A stretch of DNA of 64,000 nt from NCBI RefSeq assembly GCF_003612555.1, contig NZ_RAZF01000003.1, positions 62,001 through 126,000 of the forward strand, read 5' to 3'. Positions within the stretch are counted from its first letter, which is position 1, and each line of letters opens with the position of its first letter. Source of the DNA: Acutalibacter sp. 1XD8-33. GTDB taxonomy: Bacteria; Bacillota; Clostridia; Oscillospirales; Acutalibacteraceae. The notes under the pieces are model-generated. The model was given only the letters and a program-made list of their open reading frames with translations, ran no database searches and was not told where the DNA came from. The translations under genes and the position numbers were made by a program. Of this stretch, positions 6,995 to 60,688 are shown piece by piece.

Positions 6995-7445
6995 TAGCGT
7001 AATACGGAGTGGCCTCCGGCACACCGCGCCAAACGAGGCGAAATGAGCAGGCTGGGTTTCGCGGTGGTGTCAAAAAGATAGACGCTCGCGCGGCTCGGTC
7101 TATCTTTCCGTTTTGCTTCGCAAAACTCTGCCAAGCTGGGTGCGGACGCTCTCAGCTGGCCAGGGGCCTGTCTCACCTGCCGGTTCGGGCGGGTCAGAGC
7201 AAGAGTTCATGCCTGCATGAACTCTTCGCCACTGGCGATTTTCCCCGCCCCTTGACCGCGCAATGTCACTCCTCATTACATTCGTCGTGAAGGTTTTGAT
7301 GTTTTGACGAGCTGACCCAACAACCGTAAAAGTTTCGTAGACTTCGTAAAACGAAGTCTTACCTTTCTCAAAGGTGGCAGGGTGTGCCTTAGCAGAGTCC
7401 CACGACCTTGCCGGAATGCGCGAGAGTTCGCTTGCGAACTCTTCT
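6995..7445. repeat. Composite intergenic repeat with hairpin cassettes
   Basis: This stretch has no supported gene. Sequence from about 7250 to 7445 (anchor CCCCTTGACCGCGCAATGTC, then the AAAAGTTTCGT block, then the ACGACCTTGCCGGAATGCGC block) recurs in other gaps of the window. Perfect hairpins are embedded at 7203-7224 and 7424-7441; the latter is identical to one at 30159-30176. Short frames here are repeat artefacts. Confidence 0.85.
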
Positions 7446-20504: not shown

Positions 20505-20990
20505 CCTCCAAGACCGTGGGGACTCTGTCTCGCCTGCCGGCTCGGTCGGCGCTTGACAGTCCCCACCGGGGACCAGCGCCCCCACACCCCTGCAATGGGG
20601 CCGAAACTTGGCAAGCCAAGTTTTCCGCCCCTTGACCGCGCAATGTCACTCCTCATTTCATTCGTCGTGAACGTTTTGATGTTTTCACCCAGCTAACCAG
20701 GGTAAAAGTTTCGTCAACCTTTTCAAAGGTTGCGGTGGTTTGGAGGCAGCGCCTCCAAGGTCTTTCCCTTGACCTTAACACCTGAGAAAACAACGCAGGA
20801 GGGTAGCATAAACGTCCCAGTGGGACGTTTTGCGTAGGGGACCCTCGTCGGGGGTCCCCTGTTTGGCTTTGCATATGCAAAGCCAACATCCCTTGGGCCC
20901 CAGAGAAGGCCAGCTCTAGGCGGAAGCACGTAGCCAATTCACCCGCTTGACGTGGTGCTCCGCAACCAGCCAGCGGGCGCACCCACGCGC
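20505..20990. repeat. Composite intergenic repeat inside the polysaccharide cluster
   Basis: Nearly 500 bases without a gene between the pyruvyl-transferase family gene and the FrhB gene. It holds the common anchors (CCCTTGACCGCGCAATGTCA, AAAAGTTTCGTCAACC, TTGACCTTAACACCTGAGAA) and several palindromes, including a perfect 24-base one at 20863-20886 with TTGGCTTTGC arms. Much of it is also found at 24350-24560 and 47770-48010. Confidence 0.85.
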
Positions 20991-24352: not shown

Positions 24353-24660
24353 CGTGGAGGCTCTGCCTCCACACCTCCGCAAGGGGCCTAACGCCCCTTG
24401 ACCGCGTAATGTCACTCCTCATTTCATTCGTCGTGAAGGTTTTATGTTGTTTGACACGCTAACCTAACAACCGTAAAAGTTTCGTCAACCTTTTCAAAGG
24501 TTGCGGTGGTTTGGAGGCAGCGCCTCCAAGGTCTTGCCCTTGACCTTAACACCTGAGAAGCGTATTTTTGAAGGTGAATTGCCGCGCAGCGGCAAGAGGA
24601 AACTTTTTACAAGAGAAAAAGTTTCCTGAATACCGGAACCAGCCAGCGGCAAGCGTCCCC
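24353..24660. repeat. Composite intergenic repeat
   Basis: Fills the gap between the kinase and the phosphorylase. It has the GGAGGCTCTGCCTCC palindrome, the CCCTTGACCGCGTAATGTCA anchor, the AAAAGTTTCGTCAACC block, a GGAGGCAGCGCCTCC palindrome, the ACCTTAACACCTGAGAAGCG anchor and an AAACTTTTT/AAAAAGTTT hairpin. Confidence 0.85.
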
Positions 24661-26248: not shown

Positions 26249-26860
26249 CTAAGACCTTGGAGGCGTTGCCTCCAAACCTCCACCACCTTTGAAAAGGTGG
26301 ACGAAACTTTTACTGTCACTCCTCATTGCATTCGTCGTGATGCTTTTACGGTTTTTGCATAGCCACAACATATTGCGCGGTCCAGGGGCGTTAGGCCCCT
26401 GGTAGGGTGTGGGACAACGTCCCACGGTCTTGACCTTGACCTTAACACCTGAGAAGCGCATTTTTGCCAGGGGTGAATTGGTGCGAGGCACCAAGAGGGG
26501 ACGCTTTTTCTCTTACAAAAAGCGTCCCCTGGAAACCGGAACCAGCGCCCCTCGTCGGGGGGGGGGTGAGTGTCTGCCAGTGGCAGGCAAGCCGCGAACC
26601 GACCGAGTCGGCAGACGAGACCCCCTGTTTCGCTTTGCCTTTGCAAAGCGAACAAAAAGCTGCCTAGCGCTGGCTGCTTCCGGTTTCCAGGAAACTTTTT
26701 CTCTTGTAAAAAGTTTCCTCTTGTCGCTGCGCGGCAATTCACCTCCAAAAATACGCTTCTCAGGTGTTGAAGGACAAGACCTTGGGGTTTCATCCCAAAC
26801 CCCACAAATTTTTTGAAAAAAGTTTGATCAAAAACTTTTACCCTGGTCAGCTGGGAGCGC
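26249..26860. repeat. Composite intergenic repeat, long copy
   Basis: About 600 bases without a gene. It starts with a GGAGGCGTTGCCTCC palindrome, contains the AACACCTGAGAAGCG anchor near 26445-26460 and the same anchor inverted near 26755, so the copy is partly a large inverted repeat. Open frames across it in several phases are repeat artefacts. Confidence 0.85.
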
Positions 26861-29630: not shown

Positions 29631-29737
29631 AGATATAATTCCCTTCCCCAAGGTGTAAACCTGGCGCCTCAAAAGAGAAAGCGTCCGATTTGACGCAGCA
29701 ATCCCACGCCAAACGAACGCCATTGTCCATTTGCTTT

Positions 29738-29850
29738 ATAGTTAACGAAGTTCAAAAGAGGTATACCTCTTTTGAACCAGGCAGCGCAGCAACTGCTGTG
29801 CCGCCCAGCTTGAAAATTGGTATATACCGATTTTCAAGTGTGTTTATTAT
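29738..29850. repeat. Three-hairpin element in the glnA leader
   Basis: Bounded by ATAGTTAAC and TTTATTAT. It contains three hairpins in series: GTTCAAAAGAGG/CCTCTTTTGAAC, GGCAGCGCAG/CTGCTGTGCC and CTTGAAAAT/ATTTTCAAG. It is related to copies at 23133, 44999 and 60582. It sits between the glnA promoter and the coding region. Confidence 0.87.
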
Positions 29851-29929: not shown

Positions 29930-30230
29930 ACGGCCTCCGGCGGCTGGGGGTTTCACCCCCCGTCCCCCACCACCTTTGAAAAGGTGGACGAAACTTTTAC
30001 CCTGGTTAGCTTGCAATGCTACAGTTGGCAACATCGACCGGTCCAGCTGGTCTTAAGCTGGTCGTCGTGTGGGGGTGCTGGTCCCCTGTGGGGACCGTCA
30101 AGCACCGACCGAACCGGCAGGTGAGACCGAAACCCCACGACCTTGCCGGAATGCGCGCGAGTTCGCTTGCGAACTCTTCTGTGCGCATGGAGGCCTCCCA
30201 ATACTCCAAAAAACACTTCCAGCTCCCCCC
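29930..30230. repeat. Composite intergenic repeat
   Basis: Carries the CACCTTTGAAAAGGTGGACG hairpin, the ACGACCTTGCCGGAATGCGC block and a perfect GAGTTCGC/GCGAACTC hairpin at 30159-30176. From about 30140 to 30205 it nearly matches 7403-7470. Confidence 0.83.
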
Positions 30231-40274: not shown

Positions 40275-40815
40275 TTGTGTGAGACCTTGGGGCTCTGCCC
40301 CAAACCCCGCAAGGGGCCTAACGCCCCTTGACCGCGTAATGTCACTCCTCACTTCGTTCGTCGTGAACGTCTTACGATTTTTTGACGAGCTGACCTAACA
40401 ACCGTAAAATGTTTCGTAGACTTCGTGAAACGAAGTCTTACCTTTCTCAAAGGTTGCAGGGGTTTGGGGGCGCTGGTCCCCAGTGGGGACCGTCAAGCGC
40501 TGACCGAGCCGGCAGGCGAGACCAGAGTCCCCAAGGTCTTTCCCTTGACCTTAACACCTGAGAAGCGCAATTTTTGCGGGTGTGAATAATAGTTAATCTC
40601 GCTCTGCTCGATTAACTATCCGAGTTTTGCAAAGCAAAACTCTTACAAGAGGGGGGCGGAGAGTTCATCTCGTGTAACGAGATGAAACTCTTTTGCAACT
40701 GAATAAAAAGCTCCCCTAGTACCAGAGAAAGCCAGCTCCAGCCGCAGTATCCCAGCCAAAGCGCCCGCCCAGCCGTGTGCTCCGCAACCAGTCGGCGCGC
40801 GCACTCACGCGCCCA
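40275..40815. repeat. Composite repeat splitting the hydrogenase locus
   Basis: About 540 bases without a gene. The sequence from about 40545 to 40700 (ACCTTAACACCTGAGAAGCG, then TTAATC..GATTAA, GAGTTTTGC/GCAAAACTC at 40622-40642, GAGTTCATCTCG/CGAGATGAAACTC) reappears inverted at about 53085-53260. The tail (AGCCAGCTCC..GTATCCCAGCCAA) recurs at 43565-43615 and 52355-52415. Confidence 0.87.
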
Positions 40816-43137: not shown

Positions 43138-43645
43138 CTTCAGACCTTGGAGGCTCTGCCTCCAAGCCTCCGCAATGGGGCCGAAACTTGGCAAAGCCAA
43201 GTTTTCCGCCCCTTGACCGCGCAATGTCACTCCTCATTTCATTCGTCGTGAAGATTTTATGTTATTTGCCAAGCTGACCAGGGTAAAAGTTTCGTCCACC
43301 TTTTCAAAGGTGGGAGGGTGTGCCTTAGCAACGTCCCACGGCCTTGCCCTTGACCTTTACTCCTGAGAAAAAAGCGCAGGAAGGGTAAATGAAAGTCTCC
43401 AGTGGGACGTTTTGCGTAGGGGGTCTACGCTTCCGCTCCGGTCGGCGCTGAACGGTCCCCACAGGGGACCAGCGCCCCTCGTCGGGGGGCGACAATCGCC
43501 AGTGGCGATTTCCCGTCGCCGACCGAGCCGACAGGCGAGACCCCCTTGGAAAAGGGGAAGCCCATCTGTGGGCGGAGTATCTCAGCCAGAATGCCCGCCC
43601 AGACTGGTGCTCCTTACCGTACCCCCGGCCCCGGCAGGCCTCCGG
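43138..43645. repeat. Composite intergenic repeat
   Basis: About 500 bases without a gene between the hydrogenase locus and serC. It holds the GGAGGCTCTGCCTCC palindrome, the CCCTTGACCGCGCAATGTCA anchor, the AAAAGTTTCGTCCACC block, ATCGCCAGTGGCGAT hairpins and the AGTATCTCAGCCAG tail. Confidence 0.85.
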
Positions 43646-44998: not shown

Positions 44999-45103
44999 AT
45001 AGTTAACACCGTTCAAAAGAGGTTTTCTACCTCTTTTGAACCCGGCGGCGTAGCCGCCTAGCTTGAAAATCGGTAAATAACGATTTTCAAGTGTGTTTAC
45101 TAT
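44999..45103. repeat. Three-hairpin element downstream of serC
   Basis: ATAGTTAAC at the left and GTTTACTAT at the right frame three hairpins: TTCAAAAGAGG/CCTCTTTTGAA, GGCGGCGTAGCCGCC and CTTGAAAATCG/CGATTTTCAAG. About 105 bp, the most complete copy with the one at 60582. Confidence 0.88.
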
Positions 45104-45217
45104 AAAAGCGCCCCTCCCCCGCCGTGTCTGCGGGAAGAGGCGGGCGCTGTCTGTCATAAAACGGTAGGCGGTCGGCCCCCAGCATCAGGGACTCATCCCC
45201 CGGAAAGGGGGATTGCC

Positions 45218-47764: not shown

Positions 47765-48330
47765 CGGAACAAGCCAACCAGGGTAAAAGTTTTGCTCGAG
47801 CTTTTTCAAAAGCTCGCAGGGGTTTGGGGACAGCGTCCCCAAGGTCTTGCCCTTGACCTTAACACCTGAGAAAACAACGCAGGAGGGTAACATAAACGTC
47901 CCGGTGGGACGTTTTGCGTAGGGGACCCTCGTCGGAGGGCGCTGGTCTCCGCTGGAGACCGTCAAGCGCCGACCGAGCCGGCAGGCGAGACCCCCTGTTT
48001 CGCTTTGCATCTGCAAAGCGAACGAAAGCTGCATAGCGCTGGCTGGTTCCGGTTTCCAGGAAACTTTTTTTCTTGCAAAAAGTTTCCTCTTGACGCTACG
48101 CGTCAATTCACCTTCAAAAATGCGCTTCTCAGGTGTTTAAGGGCAAGACCTTGGAGGCTCTGCCTCCAAACCACCGCGAGCTTTTGAAAAAGCTCGCGCA
48201 AAACTTTTACGGTTGTTAGGTCAGCTCGTTAAAAAACGTTAATCGTCTGCGACGAACGAAGTGAGGAAGCAGGGTAAAAGTCTCGTCAACCTTTTCAACG
48301 GTTGCAGGGTGTGGGACAGCGTCCCACGAC
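47765..48330. repeat. Composite repeat between csoR and copA
   Basis: About 570 bases without a gene, with the full run of modules: AAAAGTTTTGCTCGAGC, CCTTGACCTTAACACCTGAG, AAACGTCCCGGTGGGACGTTT, CGCTTTGC..GCAAAGCG, AAACTTTTT..AAAAAGTTT and the inverted AACACCTGAGAAGCG near 48120. It would give a highly structured leader if csoR-copA were one transcript. Confidence 0.87.
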
Positions 48331-48349
48331 CTTAAAAGGAGGTCTTTCT

Positions 48350-51024: not shown

Positions 51025-52020
51025 ATGATTATTGCCTGTTATTACGGCGATCTTCCAGACTGGATGGATTTGTGGTTACTATCCTGCAAATATAATCCGC
51101 AATTTCACTTTATGCTGGTGACGGACTGTGCTATCGCCTCTCTCCCCGGCAATGTCACTTTGCTGCACTTGAGCATGGACGAGCTTCGCCGCCGGTTCAG
51201 CGATGTGGTGGGGTTTCCCGTCGCCCTTTCTTTCCCCTATAAATTGTGCGACTTTAAGCCTGTGTATGGATTGGCGTTTCAAAAAGAACTCGCCGGCTAT
51301 GGTTTTTGGGGACACTGCGATTTGGACCTCATTTGGGGAAATCTGCGGGCATTCATTTCTGATGATCTGCTTAGCCACTACGATCGCATCGGGGCTGTCG
51401 GACATCTGACGCTCTATCGAAACTGTGAGAATATCAATCGCTTTTTCATGAGGCCGGGAGCGGCTTTTCCATACCGCACTGTCCTGACCGACCCTGACCA
51501 CTACGGCTTTGACGAGTTTGCTGGCACCAATCTGATTTTTCATAAAAATAACCACCCGTTTTATACAGAGCTTCCCATCGCAGACGCGGCCCGATTTCTC
51601 TCGCGCATTTCCGTTTTTCCTGGAAATACAGGTCCTGAGATCTATTTCTGGAAGGATGGGCGGGTTATCCGCGCATATCAAGACGGAGACGGCTATAAAT
51701 CATCCGAATATGCGTATCTTCATTTTCAGAAAAAGCACCCTCCACATGATTCTGGCCAGAATTACGAAGAGGGTTTTTACATTAAATCAAAGGGATTCCA
51801 GCCTCGAAAAAGCACATTTCCTTCCCTTGATGAAATTCAATCAGAAACGGAATTTTCCAGCCGGTTTCAAGACCGTTTAGATCTGTACAGAGGAACCAGA
51901 AATAGAATCTGGGATTTTCTTGTTGGAAAATCCGGACATCAAAAGGCTATTATGCTAAAAAAAGCAGGAGTCTATTTTCTGGACAAATGGAAGCGCGCCC
52001 TTGCTTCCCCTAAAAAATGA
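51025..52020 (+). CDS. DUF6625-like, possible glycosyltransferase
   Basis: A 331-aa protein resembling DUF6625 of surface-glycan loci. MIIACYYGDLPDWMDLWL at the start is a nucleotide-sugar-binding-like strand-turn, and GFWGHCDLDLIWGN carries a DxD-type metal site, suggesting a GT-A-like transferase. The body is clearly more AT-rich than adjacent genes, which hints at recent acquisition. Two starts are possible: ATG at 51025 or TTG at 51010, which has an AGGTG before it. Monocistronic, with its own promoter. Confidence 0.72.
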   Translation: MIIACYYGDLPDWMDLWLLSCKYNPQFHFMLVTDCAIASLPGNVTLLHLSMDELRRRFSDVVGFPVALSFPYKLCDFKPVYGLAFQKELAGYGFWGHCDLDLIWGNLRAFISDDLLSHYDRIGAVGHLTLYRNCENINRFFMRPGAAFPYRTVLTDPDHYGFDEFAGTNLIFHKNNHPFYTELPIADAARFLSRISVFPGNTGPEIYFWKDGRVIRAYQDGDGYKSSEYAYLHFQKKHPPHDSGQNYEEGFYIKSKGFQPRKSTFPSLDEIQSETEFSSRFQDRLDLYRGTRNRIWDFLVGKSGHQKAIMLKKAGVYFLDKWKRALASPKK

Positions 52021-52546
52021 GAATTGCCAAAACACAGAGTGTCCAAAGCGTATGCCTTTTGAAACAGTAGGGGGCCTTCAAGTGGGACCCCAAAAATTTC
52101 CCTAAAATGAGATATTTTTCTCCTCTCAAGGGTATTATGGGTGAAGGCCTTTCTATTTTTGTTCTATTGACAATTCCCACAGAAGGTGGTATGCTATGTT
52201 TATAGGTTTTTGTGCTTTCTGAGAATTGTTTTTTTGAGGGGGCCGGGTCCGCTCGGGTTCGTCCTTCGGACGAACCGCCGGGGAAACGGGCTTTGCCCGT
52301 TTCCCCACGGCCATTTTGCGGCTTGCCGCAAAATGCGAGCGGGGCGGATGGGGCAAAAGCCAGCTCTGTGCGCAGCATCCCAGCCAACTCACCCGCCCGG
52401 ACTGGTGCTCCTTGCCATTCTTCGCGCCGTGTGCCCCCCTCTCACATACAACCCTCAAAAAGGATTGGTTGAGCCCGCTGGCCCCGGGAGGGGCTTGATG
52501 CATGTGCAAAAAGGTGATATAATGAAACAAAGAGGGGATGATTTTG
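52021..52546. other. Intergenic region with promoter and a three-hairpin array
   Basis: About 520 bases without a gene. It holds GAGTGTCCAAAGCG near 52039 (shared with 45423), a promoter (TTGACA 52167-52172, 17 bases, TATGCT 52190-52195), a run of Ts, then three perfect hairpins: 52256-52276, 52280-52306 and 52312-52335. From about 52355 to 52415 it has the repeat tail also found at 40735 and 43565. Confidence 0.75.
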
Positions 52547-53047
52547 GTGAAAAAGAAAAAAGTCATCGTGTGGAGCGTTATCGCCCTGCTGGTCGTGGCG
52601 CTTGCCGCTTGGCGGGTCTGGCCCCGGAGCATCGATTCCTATTTGAAGCAGCCCAGCCAGAATACGGTCTGGGTCGGAGGTTCTCTCAACGAAATCAAAT
52701 TGGAGGACGGCCAGACCACTCATCGTCTTTATGAGATTGACGTGGAAACAGAGGAGGGAATTCGCCATGTGCTGGACATCCTGCGCCGTGGGCGGTATCA
52801 GGCCTCGCTGACAAACCTGCTCCCCTGGACCTGGGGAAAACTCGGCTCGGGCCGGGGCTACGACGGCAGGACCATCACACTCTGCGCGTCCTTCCACGCG
52901 ACAACGCCGGAGGACGCGGAAGCGAGCATATTCACTTTTGTCGGCAGCGATAGGGCTACGGTGGACGACAGGCGCATTGTCCCTATGGGAAACGAGACGT
53001 TCGAGGAGCTGGCCCAGTACATAAAGGCCAACGGGAGGGAAAAATAG
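52547..53047 (+). CDS. Membrane-anchored protein of unknown function
   Basis: A 166-aa protein with a lysine-rich N-terminus and one hydrophobic segment (about residues 6-23), then a soluble domain. No family is recognised. The start is probably the GTG at 52547 after AGAGGGGATG; an ATG at 52538 is too close to that site. A stand-alone gene with repeats on both sides. Confidence 0.65.
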   Translation: MKKKKVIVWSVIALLVVALAAWRVWPRSIDSYLKQPSQNTVWVGGSLNEIKLEDGQTTHRLYEIDVETEEGIRHVLDILRRGRYQASLTNLLPWTWGKLGSGRGYDGRTITLCASFHATTPEDAEASIFTFVGSDRATVDDRRIVPMGNETFEELAQYIKANGREK

Positions 53048-53084
53048 GGATCTTTCCGGGGAGATGGCGGGTTCCGGGACTAGG

Positions 53085-53525
53085 GGTGCTTTTTATTCAG
53101 TTGCAAAAGAGTTCATCTCGTTACACGAGATGAACTCTCCGCACCCTCTTGCAAGAGTTTTGCTTTGCAAAACTCGGATAGTTAACCGAGCGCAGCGAGT
53201 GTTAACCTATAATTCACCACCCGCAAAAATTGCGCTTCTCAGGTGTTTAAGGTCAAGGGCAAGACCGTGGAGCTCAAGAGTTCGCGAAGCGAACTCTCCC
53301 ACGCCTCGCCGCCTTTAAGAAAGGCAAGACTTCGTTTCACGAAGTCTACGAAACATTTTAATCTGGCTGGCTGAGTGCCCAAAAGCCAACAAGGGTAAAA
53401 GTTTTGTCCACTTTTTCAAAAGTGGTGGGGTTCTTAGGGGGCGACAATCGCCAGTGGCGATTTCCCGTCGCCGACCGAGCCGGAAGGCGAGACCCAACGC
53501 CCCTAAGCCGCCGGAGACCACACAG
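53085..53525. repeat. Composite repeat, partly inverted copy of 40.5-40.7 kb
   Basis: From about 53085 to 53260 it is the reverse complement of about 40545-40700 with small changes, including the perfect GAGTTTTGC/GCAAAACTC hairpin at 53155-53175. A second part (53395-53520) has AAAAGTTTTGTCCAC, ATCGCCAGTGGCGAT and the GCCGCCGGAGACCA end. Confidence 0.87.
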
Positions 53526-59484: not shown

Positions 59485-60582
59485 ATGGAGAAACTCTGCC
59501 GTTTAGGAAAAAACCTGGTCGTGCTGGCCTGCGCGGCGGTATGCATCTGGTGCGTTGCCGAAAATTTCCAAAGCTGGGCAAAGGAGCAAGGAGGCAAAGC
59601 ACTGCTTTTTGCCGCGGGAATGGGCATTCAGGAAACGCCGGTCCCCGCGGCAGGTATGGCCTCGGATTCTCCGGTGACAACGGCGGAACCGCAAAAGCCT
59701 CAGACCGTCCAGCCCATGGAGCTGAACCTGCCCGATGACGGCATCGTCCCCTTTCACAGCGATCTGTTTCCCGGGCAGAACGCCACACCGGACCCTGACC
59801 GAGCCAACGGGCCGGTGGAAGAAATCCAGATGGATGGGGGAACCCAGATTGGCAATTTCTATGTGCGGGATTCCACCGAGTCGGGAACAGATCTGGCGGC
59901 GGAGCTGTTGGAGCAGCCGGATGTGGACATCAAAGCCGACGGCAGCGTGGAGGTACTGATCTACCATACCCATACCTCCGAGGCATATTCGGCCAGCAGC
60001 CCAGGCTTTTACTATACGGATATGGAGACCAGGACGCAAAACCAAGACATGAGCGTAGTCGCCGCAGGAGAAGAGCTGTGTAAGGCCCTGCAGGCCCGGG
60101 GGATCGGCGCGGTCCACGACAAGACGGTAAATGACGGAGTCTATAACGGGTCCTATGCCCGGTCATGGGAGGTAATCCAGAAAAACCTCCAGGAGCATCC
60201 GGGAATCCAGGTGACCATTGACCTGCACCGGGACTCTATGACCACGGAGTCCGGTGTGAAATACAAGCCCACGGCAGAGGTTGGCGGCCGAAAGGCGGCC
60301 CAGGCCATGCTGCTGGCCGGGTGCGACGCCGACGGCAGCTGGGGGGACTTTCCAGACTGGCGGCTGAACCTGCGGCTGATGCTGCGGGTCCAGCAGAAGG
60401 CCCAGGAGCTCTATCCGGGGCTGATGCGGCCCATGAATTTTTCCAACAGCAAGTACAACATGAACGCCACCCACGGTTCCATGCTCATTGAGGTGGGAAC
60501 AGAGGTGAACACAGCGGCAGAGGCCCGGTACACCGGACAGCTGCTGGGAGAAATTCTGGCGGAGGCTCTGACCACAATATAA
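59485..60582 (+). CDS. spoIIP: Stage II sporulation protein P
   Basis: A 365-aa SpoIIP, a peptidoglycan amidase/endopeptidase needed for engulfment. An N-terminal membrane anchor (about 10-25) is followed by a linker and the catalytic domain, with zinc motifs HTHTSE (near residue 168) and DLHRDS (near 246) and the late EVGTEVNT. AAAGGA touches an ATG at 59473, so that start is unlikely; TTG 59482 and ATG 59485 have workable spacing. A three-hairpin element starts at its stop codon. Confidence 0.92.
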   Translation: MEKLCRLGKNLVVLACAAVCIWCVAENFQSWAKEQGGKALLFAAGMGIQETPVPAAGMASDSPVTTAEPQKPQTVQPMELNLPDDGIVPFHSDLFPGQNATPDPDRANGPVEEIQMDGGTQIGNFYVRDSTESGTDLAAELLEQPDVDIKADGSVEVLIYHTHTSEAYSASSPGFYYTDMETRTQNQDMSVVAAGEELCKALQARGIGAVHDKTVNDGVYNGSYARSWEVIQKNLQEHPGIQVTIDLHRDSMTTESGVKYKPTAEVGGRKAAQAMLLAGCDADGSWGDFPDWRLNLRLMLRVQQKAQELYPGLMRPMNFSNSKYNMNATHGSMLIEVGTEVNTAAEARYTGQLLGEILAEALTTI

Positions 60583-60688
60583 TAGTTAACGCAGTTCAAA
60601 AGATGTAGAATACCTCTTTTGAACCCAGCGGCGTAGCCGCCTAGCTTGAAAATCGGTATTTACCGATTTTCAAGTGCGTTTTACTATA
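60582..60688. repeat. Three-hairpin element at the spoIIP stop codon
   Basis: ATAGTTAAC begins on the last base of the spoIIP TAA. Hairpins TTCAAAAGA../..TCTTTTGAA, GGCGTAGCC and CTTGAAAATCGGTA/TACCGATTTTCAAG follow; the right end is TTTTACTAT. Confidence 0.88.

Follow-up and report, generated by a model that had tools for sequence, protein, structure and literature searches.

Several described systems resemble parts of the repeat reported here. REP sequences are single palindromes of 20-40 bp, most of them tagged with GTAG or CGTC and many accompanied by a linked RAYT gene; like our repeat, REPs and BIMEs, and REPINs with their RAYTs, form many dispersed extragenic palindromes, mosaic composites and units of alternating orientation (PMC2817692, PMC3116915, PMC3733652). 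The double-hairpin and repetitive hairpin-forming elements of mitochondria are, as described, comparable as spreading intergenic hairpin units (PMC5910586, PMC2800124). At the level of mutation, template switching between inverted repeats homogenises their arms and inverts their spacers, with ttc/gaa flips in arms longer than 9 bp (PMC8604942), and it both creates and maintains hairpins with multi-base compensatory changes (PMC8794818). Bacterial MITEs are short, non-coding and intergenic, with lineage-specific copies, as is the case here; their inverted ends have a possible counterpart in motifs at the ends of many arrays, though not of all. The terminal repeats of parvoviruses consist of a multi-arm palindrome closed by an outer stem and occurring in flip and flop orientations.

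In the 64,000-nucleotide stretch of DNA analysed (the window), one intergenic gap contains a 98-nt palindromic cassette with a cloverleaf fold (Table 1). Our verdict is that this cloverleaf is a new, species-restricted variant of the dispersed intergenic palindromic repeats and not a small RNA gene. More fully, we put at roughly 0.72 the probability that it is a dispersed palindromic DNA repeat cassette, restricted to one species, which forms a block of intergenic hairpin-mosaic arrays, holds no independent small-RNA gene and is maintained by DNA-level processes. It differs from REPs in being a 98-nt cloverleaf of three perfect hairpins with no linked Y1 gene. In the consensus of alignment A1, GTAG is absent and CGTC lies inside hairpin 1 only, not as an end tag. 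Compared with MITEs, neither a parental transposase nor, at three array-free sites with diverged flanks, a target-site duplication was found, and the internal cassettes are exchanged independently. The mitochondrial elements are organellar and, as described, include no closed three-arm cloverleaf (PMC5910586, PMC2800124); we claim no sequence kinship with them. In contrast to the parvoviral ends, the cassette is chromosomal, internal and three-armed. We know of no replication protein associated with it.

Table 1. Features of the cloverleaf cassette, its array and the upstream DNA (window positions)
Feature	Position	Strand	Sequence and remarks	Comparison or pairing
Promoter-like TTGACA-17-TATGCT	52167..52195	+	unique DNA, outside the array, not in the repeat	
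Left array end (the T-rich stretch)	52229..52242	+	TTTTTTTGAGGGGG; a similar motif ends arrays L016, L017 and L021	
Cloverleaf cassette	52247..52344	+	98 nt, four-way junction, one of 26 genome copies	BLAST and covariance-model copies; alignment A1
Outer stem, left arm	52247..52255	+	consensus CCCCGCTCG, here GTCCGCTCG	pairs with 52336-52344
Hairpin 1	52256..52276	+	GGTTCGTCC-TTC-GGACGAACC, 9 bp	TTC/GAA loop flips among copies
Hairpin 2, extended	52277..52311	+	GCC + GGGGAAACGGGC-TTT-GCCCGTTTCCCC + AC bulge + GGC	both arms change in mirror fashion between copies
Hairpin 2, perfect part	52280-52306	+	GGGGAAACGGGC-TTT-GCCCGTTTCCCC, 12 bp	
Hairpin 3	52312..52335	+	CATTTTGCGGC-TT-GCCGCAAAATG, 11 bp	standard pairs throughout in all 26 copies
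Outer stem, right arm	52336..52344	+	CGAGCGGGG	alignment A1
Module A, adjoining	52345..52415	+	CGGATGGGGCAAAAGCCAGCTCTGTGCGCAG...; common to other arrays, also without cloverleaf	
Module B' fragment	52416..52435	+	CATTCTTCGCGCCGTGTGCC; elsewhere abuts the other side of the cloverleaf	flanks of L007 and L010
Right array end	52452..52461	+	CCCTCAAAAA; inverted relative to the left end	

The first-pass annotation had described a promoter leading through a T-rich stretch into three consecutive perfect hairpins with loops of 2-3 nt. Direct reading of the sequence bears out both the promoter and the hairpins, which lie 3 and 5 nt apart. Two features had escaped notice. An outer stem (CCCCGCTCG/CGAGCGGGG; core CCGCTCG/CGAGCGG at 52249-52255/52336-52342) surrounds all three arms and closes them into a cloverleaf; hairpin 2, for its part, is lengthened by a GCC/GGC pairing that uses most of both linkers. 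Hardly any base of the cassette is left unpaired, the AC bulge and the three tiny loops being nearly the sole exceptions, and 97.4% of outer-stem cells are paired across the 26 copies in the genome. Perfect hairpins of at least 8 bp are numerous in the 64-kb window (50, against 3-11 in Markov sequences of equal composition), and three adjacent ones in a single run occur only here within it. No other enclosed multi-hairpin junction was found in about 1.25 Mb of DNA from this genome and the genomes G003 and G026.

A covariance search, proposed in the first-pass annotation, returns 26 full copies from the genome (3.62 Mb in 106 contigs), the identical set to that found by BLAST. They occupy 26 intergenic gaps and are 87-99% identical to the consensus. 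The question of whether individual hairpins recur in other gaps had also been raised: they do recur, but across the whole genome only as part of the cloverleaf. Exact patterns of hairpins 1, 2 and 3 match at 21, 16 and 24 places, respectively, all of them inside cloverleaf copies, and the unit of dispersal is therefore the cloverleaf and not the hairpin. A partial copy (L029, at C12:20128) lacks hairpins 1 and 2, and the exact point at which its outer stem meets hairpin 3 is the helix base. BLAST and covariance searches recovered no cloverleaf from the 28 other species of the genus; there was likewise none in 150 sampled genomes of the family and 394 of the order (the samples overlap), in phage, plasmid and viral collections, or in a pattern scan of reference genomes. 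Other genomes (G130, G008 and others) gave weak matches to single hairpins, which were set aside as isolated or imperfect hairpins without the remainder of the cassette. A copper ATPase encoded nearby has its best relatives, at 72-78%, in assemblies of gut Oscillospiraceae type.

As one of two alternatives, the first-pass annotation had suggested a cassette of the mosaic-repeat type, and this is the one that finds support: the dispersed cloverleaf copies are embedded in mosaic arrays of hairpin cassettes. Shared modules border most copies, namely module A (GGAGAAAGCCAGCTCTGTGCGCAG...CTCACGCGCCCATA), which is an array end, module B (CACACCGCGCC...GGTTTCGCGGTAGTGTC) and module C (CGCCTGACG...). 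Modules A and B are also found without the cloverleaf; a B'-A junction lacking it was found neither in this genome nor in the genus. The array at 52229-52461 is a short one. Many arrays, not all, end in inverted TTTTTTGAGGGG/CCCCTCAAAAAA motifs or in TATGGGCGCG motifs. A second recurring end, TGGCCTCCGGCGGC, lies opposite the A/T-rich end at window positions 29932, 45653 and 53516 and at L025, which suggests that arrays have two distinct defined ends. Further composite arrays are visible in the window at 7010-7412, 20509-20854, 24355-24645, 26250-26847, 40282-40736, 43142-43542, 47776-48333 and 53097-53516, with many other hairpin cassettes (stems GAGTTTTGC, GACTTCGT, TTGGAGGC, CCACCTTT and others). 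Almost every genome of this gut Oscillospiraceae genus (28 of 29) contains parts of such hairpin-mosaic arrays. The literature searched has no account of mosaic or cloverleaf repeats in these bacteria.

The neighbouring modules provide a frame, with B' or C' to the left of the cloverleaf and A to its right, in which the orientation of each cloverleaf can be read, several copies having only one recognisable neighbour. Read in this way, 14 copies point forward and 12 are inverted, the junction bases being identical in both orientations. The loops also occur in two states. That of hairpin 1 is TTC in 14 copies and GAA in 7; for hairpin 2 the counts are AAA 8/TTT 8, AAG 5/CTT 2 and AGA 1/TCT 1, and for hairpin 3 TT 8/AA 2, TC 7/GA 3 and CT 2/AG 3. 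Reverse-complement pairs dominate in all three. Complement-only pairs are also common in hairpins 2 and 3, since for AAA/TTT and TT/AA the complement equals the reverse complement, and hairpin 1 is therefore the clean case: it yields 98 reverse-complement sequence pairs, none complement-only and none reverse-only. Column shuffles lead one to expect 24.5 such pairs and reached 98 in none of 2000 trials, in a set of 26 copies that are not independent (effective sequence number 0.29) and whose shared ancestry limits the statistics. In hairpin 2 both arms change together, G-C being replaced by C-G or A-T in mirrored fashion. Common descent could explain some of the mirrored changes and, in part, why the loops occur in two states. 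A correlation of loop orientation with cassette orientation was also examined and was not convincing.

The pattern of these flips and mirrored changes makes template switching their most likely cause. A replicating strand would fold at the inverted repeats, allowing the polymerase to switch template between arms; such a switch could copy one arm onto the other, producing mirrored changes, and could invert either the loops of 2-3 nt or the entire three-arm interior between the 9-bp outer arms. In L029, hairpins 1 and 2 may have been lost, or never gained, exactly at the base. At single hairpins, both the homogenising of arms and the inversion of spacers have been described, down to identical ttc/gaa flips (PMC8604942, PMC8794818), whereas here the process is apparent also at the nested level of the whole cassette and over 26 paralogous copies. 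Since loop flips and mirrored arm changes are footprints of template switching, the paired changes in the cloverleaf are no proof of an RNA. This carries a more general caution, in that perfect stems and compensatory changes, commonly taken as proof of a functional RNA, can originate at the DNA level. Equally, 26 nested inverted repeats in one genome offer a natural set in which to count template switching, arm homogenisation and loop inversion.

The occurrence of both orientations (14 forward, 12 inverted) between unchanged neighbour junctions might instead reflect a true invertible switch, with a site-specific recombinase turning over the three-arm interior that the 9-bp outer arms enclose. 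However, the same flipping is seen in hairpin loops of 2-3 nt, too small for a recombinase site, and arms of 9 bp are short for known invertases, making such a switch highly improbable. Another unlikely reading is that undescribed machinery, which also builds the arrays of the genus, moves the cloverleaf as a folded single strand, so that it inverts actively and spreads in two forms comparable to the flip and flop of parvoviral ends.

The other alternative of the first-pass annotation, a promoter-driven small structured RNA, is not supported. All parts of the supposed promoter-and-hairpin unit are present, but the promoter and the T-rich stretch lie outside the repeat. TTGACA-17-TATGCT matches at 10 of 12 positions, has TG before the second hexamer and stands about 50 nt upstream of the cloverleaf; the 1.4 kb scanned contains 3 promoter-like sites, where shuffled sequence gives 0.7. 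An upstream promoter in the same direction with at least 10/12 matches accompanies two of the 26 copies, the one at 52247 and L021, where the match is 12/12; the remaining 24 have no such site, and the promoter seen here recurs at no other copy. In the orthologous L021 gap of the relative G026 the promoter is present (TTGACA-17-TATACT) beside a different array, so it appears to belong to the locus rather than to the cassette. The gene downstream (169 aa, no Pfam match) has a nearer promoter candidate at 52495-52523.

These two promoters, together with perfect stems that change in both arms and the folding energy (z = -4.5) of the 301 nt around the hairpins, are what one might expect if TTGACA-TATGCT drove transcription of a small structured RNA or a 5' leader element under selection for its RNA fold. 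Against it stand the 24 copies without such a promoter, the link of the L021 promoter to its locus and the near-equal occurrence of both orientations in the same array frame. Moreover, the outer stem and hairpins 1 and 3 have single mismatches of 5 G-T and 6 A-C; the preference for G-U that an RNA on this strand should show is absent, and with it any RNA-strand bias. Rfam gave no match in the window at the gathering score, relaxed thresholds yielding only sub-threshold hits (E 0.29-4.1), and no intrinsic terminator (stem plus T-run) was found in 51900-53300. We therefore regard the RNA explanation as very unlikely. A side effect on nearby transcripts is nevertheless likely where arrays are transcribed. 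In about 12 of the 26 copies the A-side array end points towards a gene start some 50-320 nt from the core, and effects on, or a role in, 5' regions are possible; the cloverleaf's own orientation is free.

G026 is a close relative whose DNA is 87-91% identical at one locus and 68-86% identical at other loci; about 1.0 Mb of it was covered. Three orthologous gaps are short and array-free in G026: between aligned flanks, L025 measures 16 nt there and 789 nt here, L026 92 and 948 nt, and L008 173 and 995 nt, so that this genome has some 0.8-0.9 kb more at each. In this two-genome comparison, the difference may represent either array gain here or loss in G026. At L011, L019 and L021 both species have array-like repeats, differing in content and without a cloverleaf in G026. 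We infer that the arrays spread passively, in a selfish-like manner, and the cassette may be inserted alone or be carried with whole arrays of about 0.2-0.9 kb.

Array-free sites in the relative would also suit a non-autonomous mobile element, MITE- or REP-like, whose folded single strand is read by a transposase in the manner of IS200/IS605-type TnpA or TnpA-REP. The dispersed copies, the inverted TTTTTTGAGGGG/CCCCTCAAAAAA motifs at array ends and one intact Y1 transposase gene in the genome (C9:15610) are all compatible with this. Yet neither a cloverleaf nor an array module lies beside that gene, Y1 transposases are present in 9 of 29 genomes of the genus as against array parts in 28 of 29, and no clean target-site duplication was recognised at the array-free L025, L026 and L008 sites, where the flanks are too diverged to show one. 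A mobile element is thus possible but on balance doubtful, and passive spread of arrays remains our preferred reading.

Some further observations concern the arrays and their surroundings. At L011 (L237, G000:C17:322000-334000, compared with L235, G026:C38) the two genomes agree in gene order on a single side of the array and differ on the other within the stretch read, and the array may mark a rearrangement breakpoint. Module B forms three tandem repeats with a 95-nt period elsewhere in this genome (G000:C6:81935-82198). Finally, a separate two-hairpin repeat, GTTCAAAAGAGGT...ACCTCTTTTGAAC plus CTTGAAAATCGGTA...TACCGATTTTCAAG, is found in three gaps of the window, at 29737-29838, 45011-45105 and 60582-60674.
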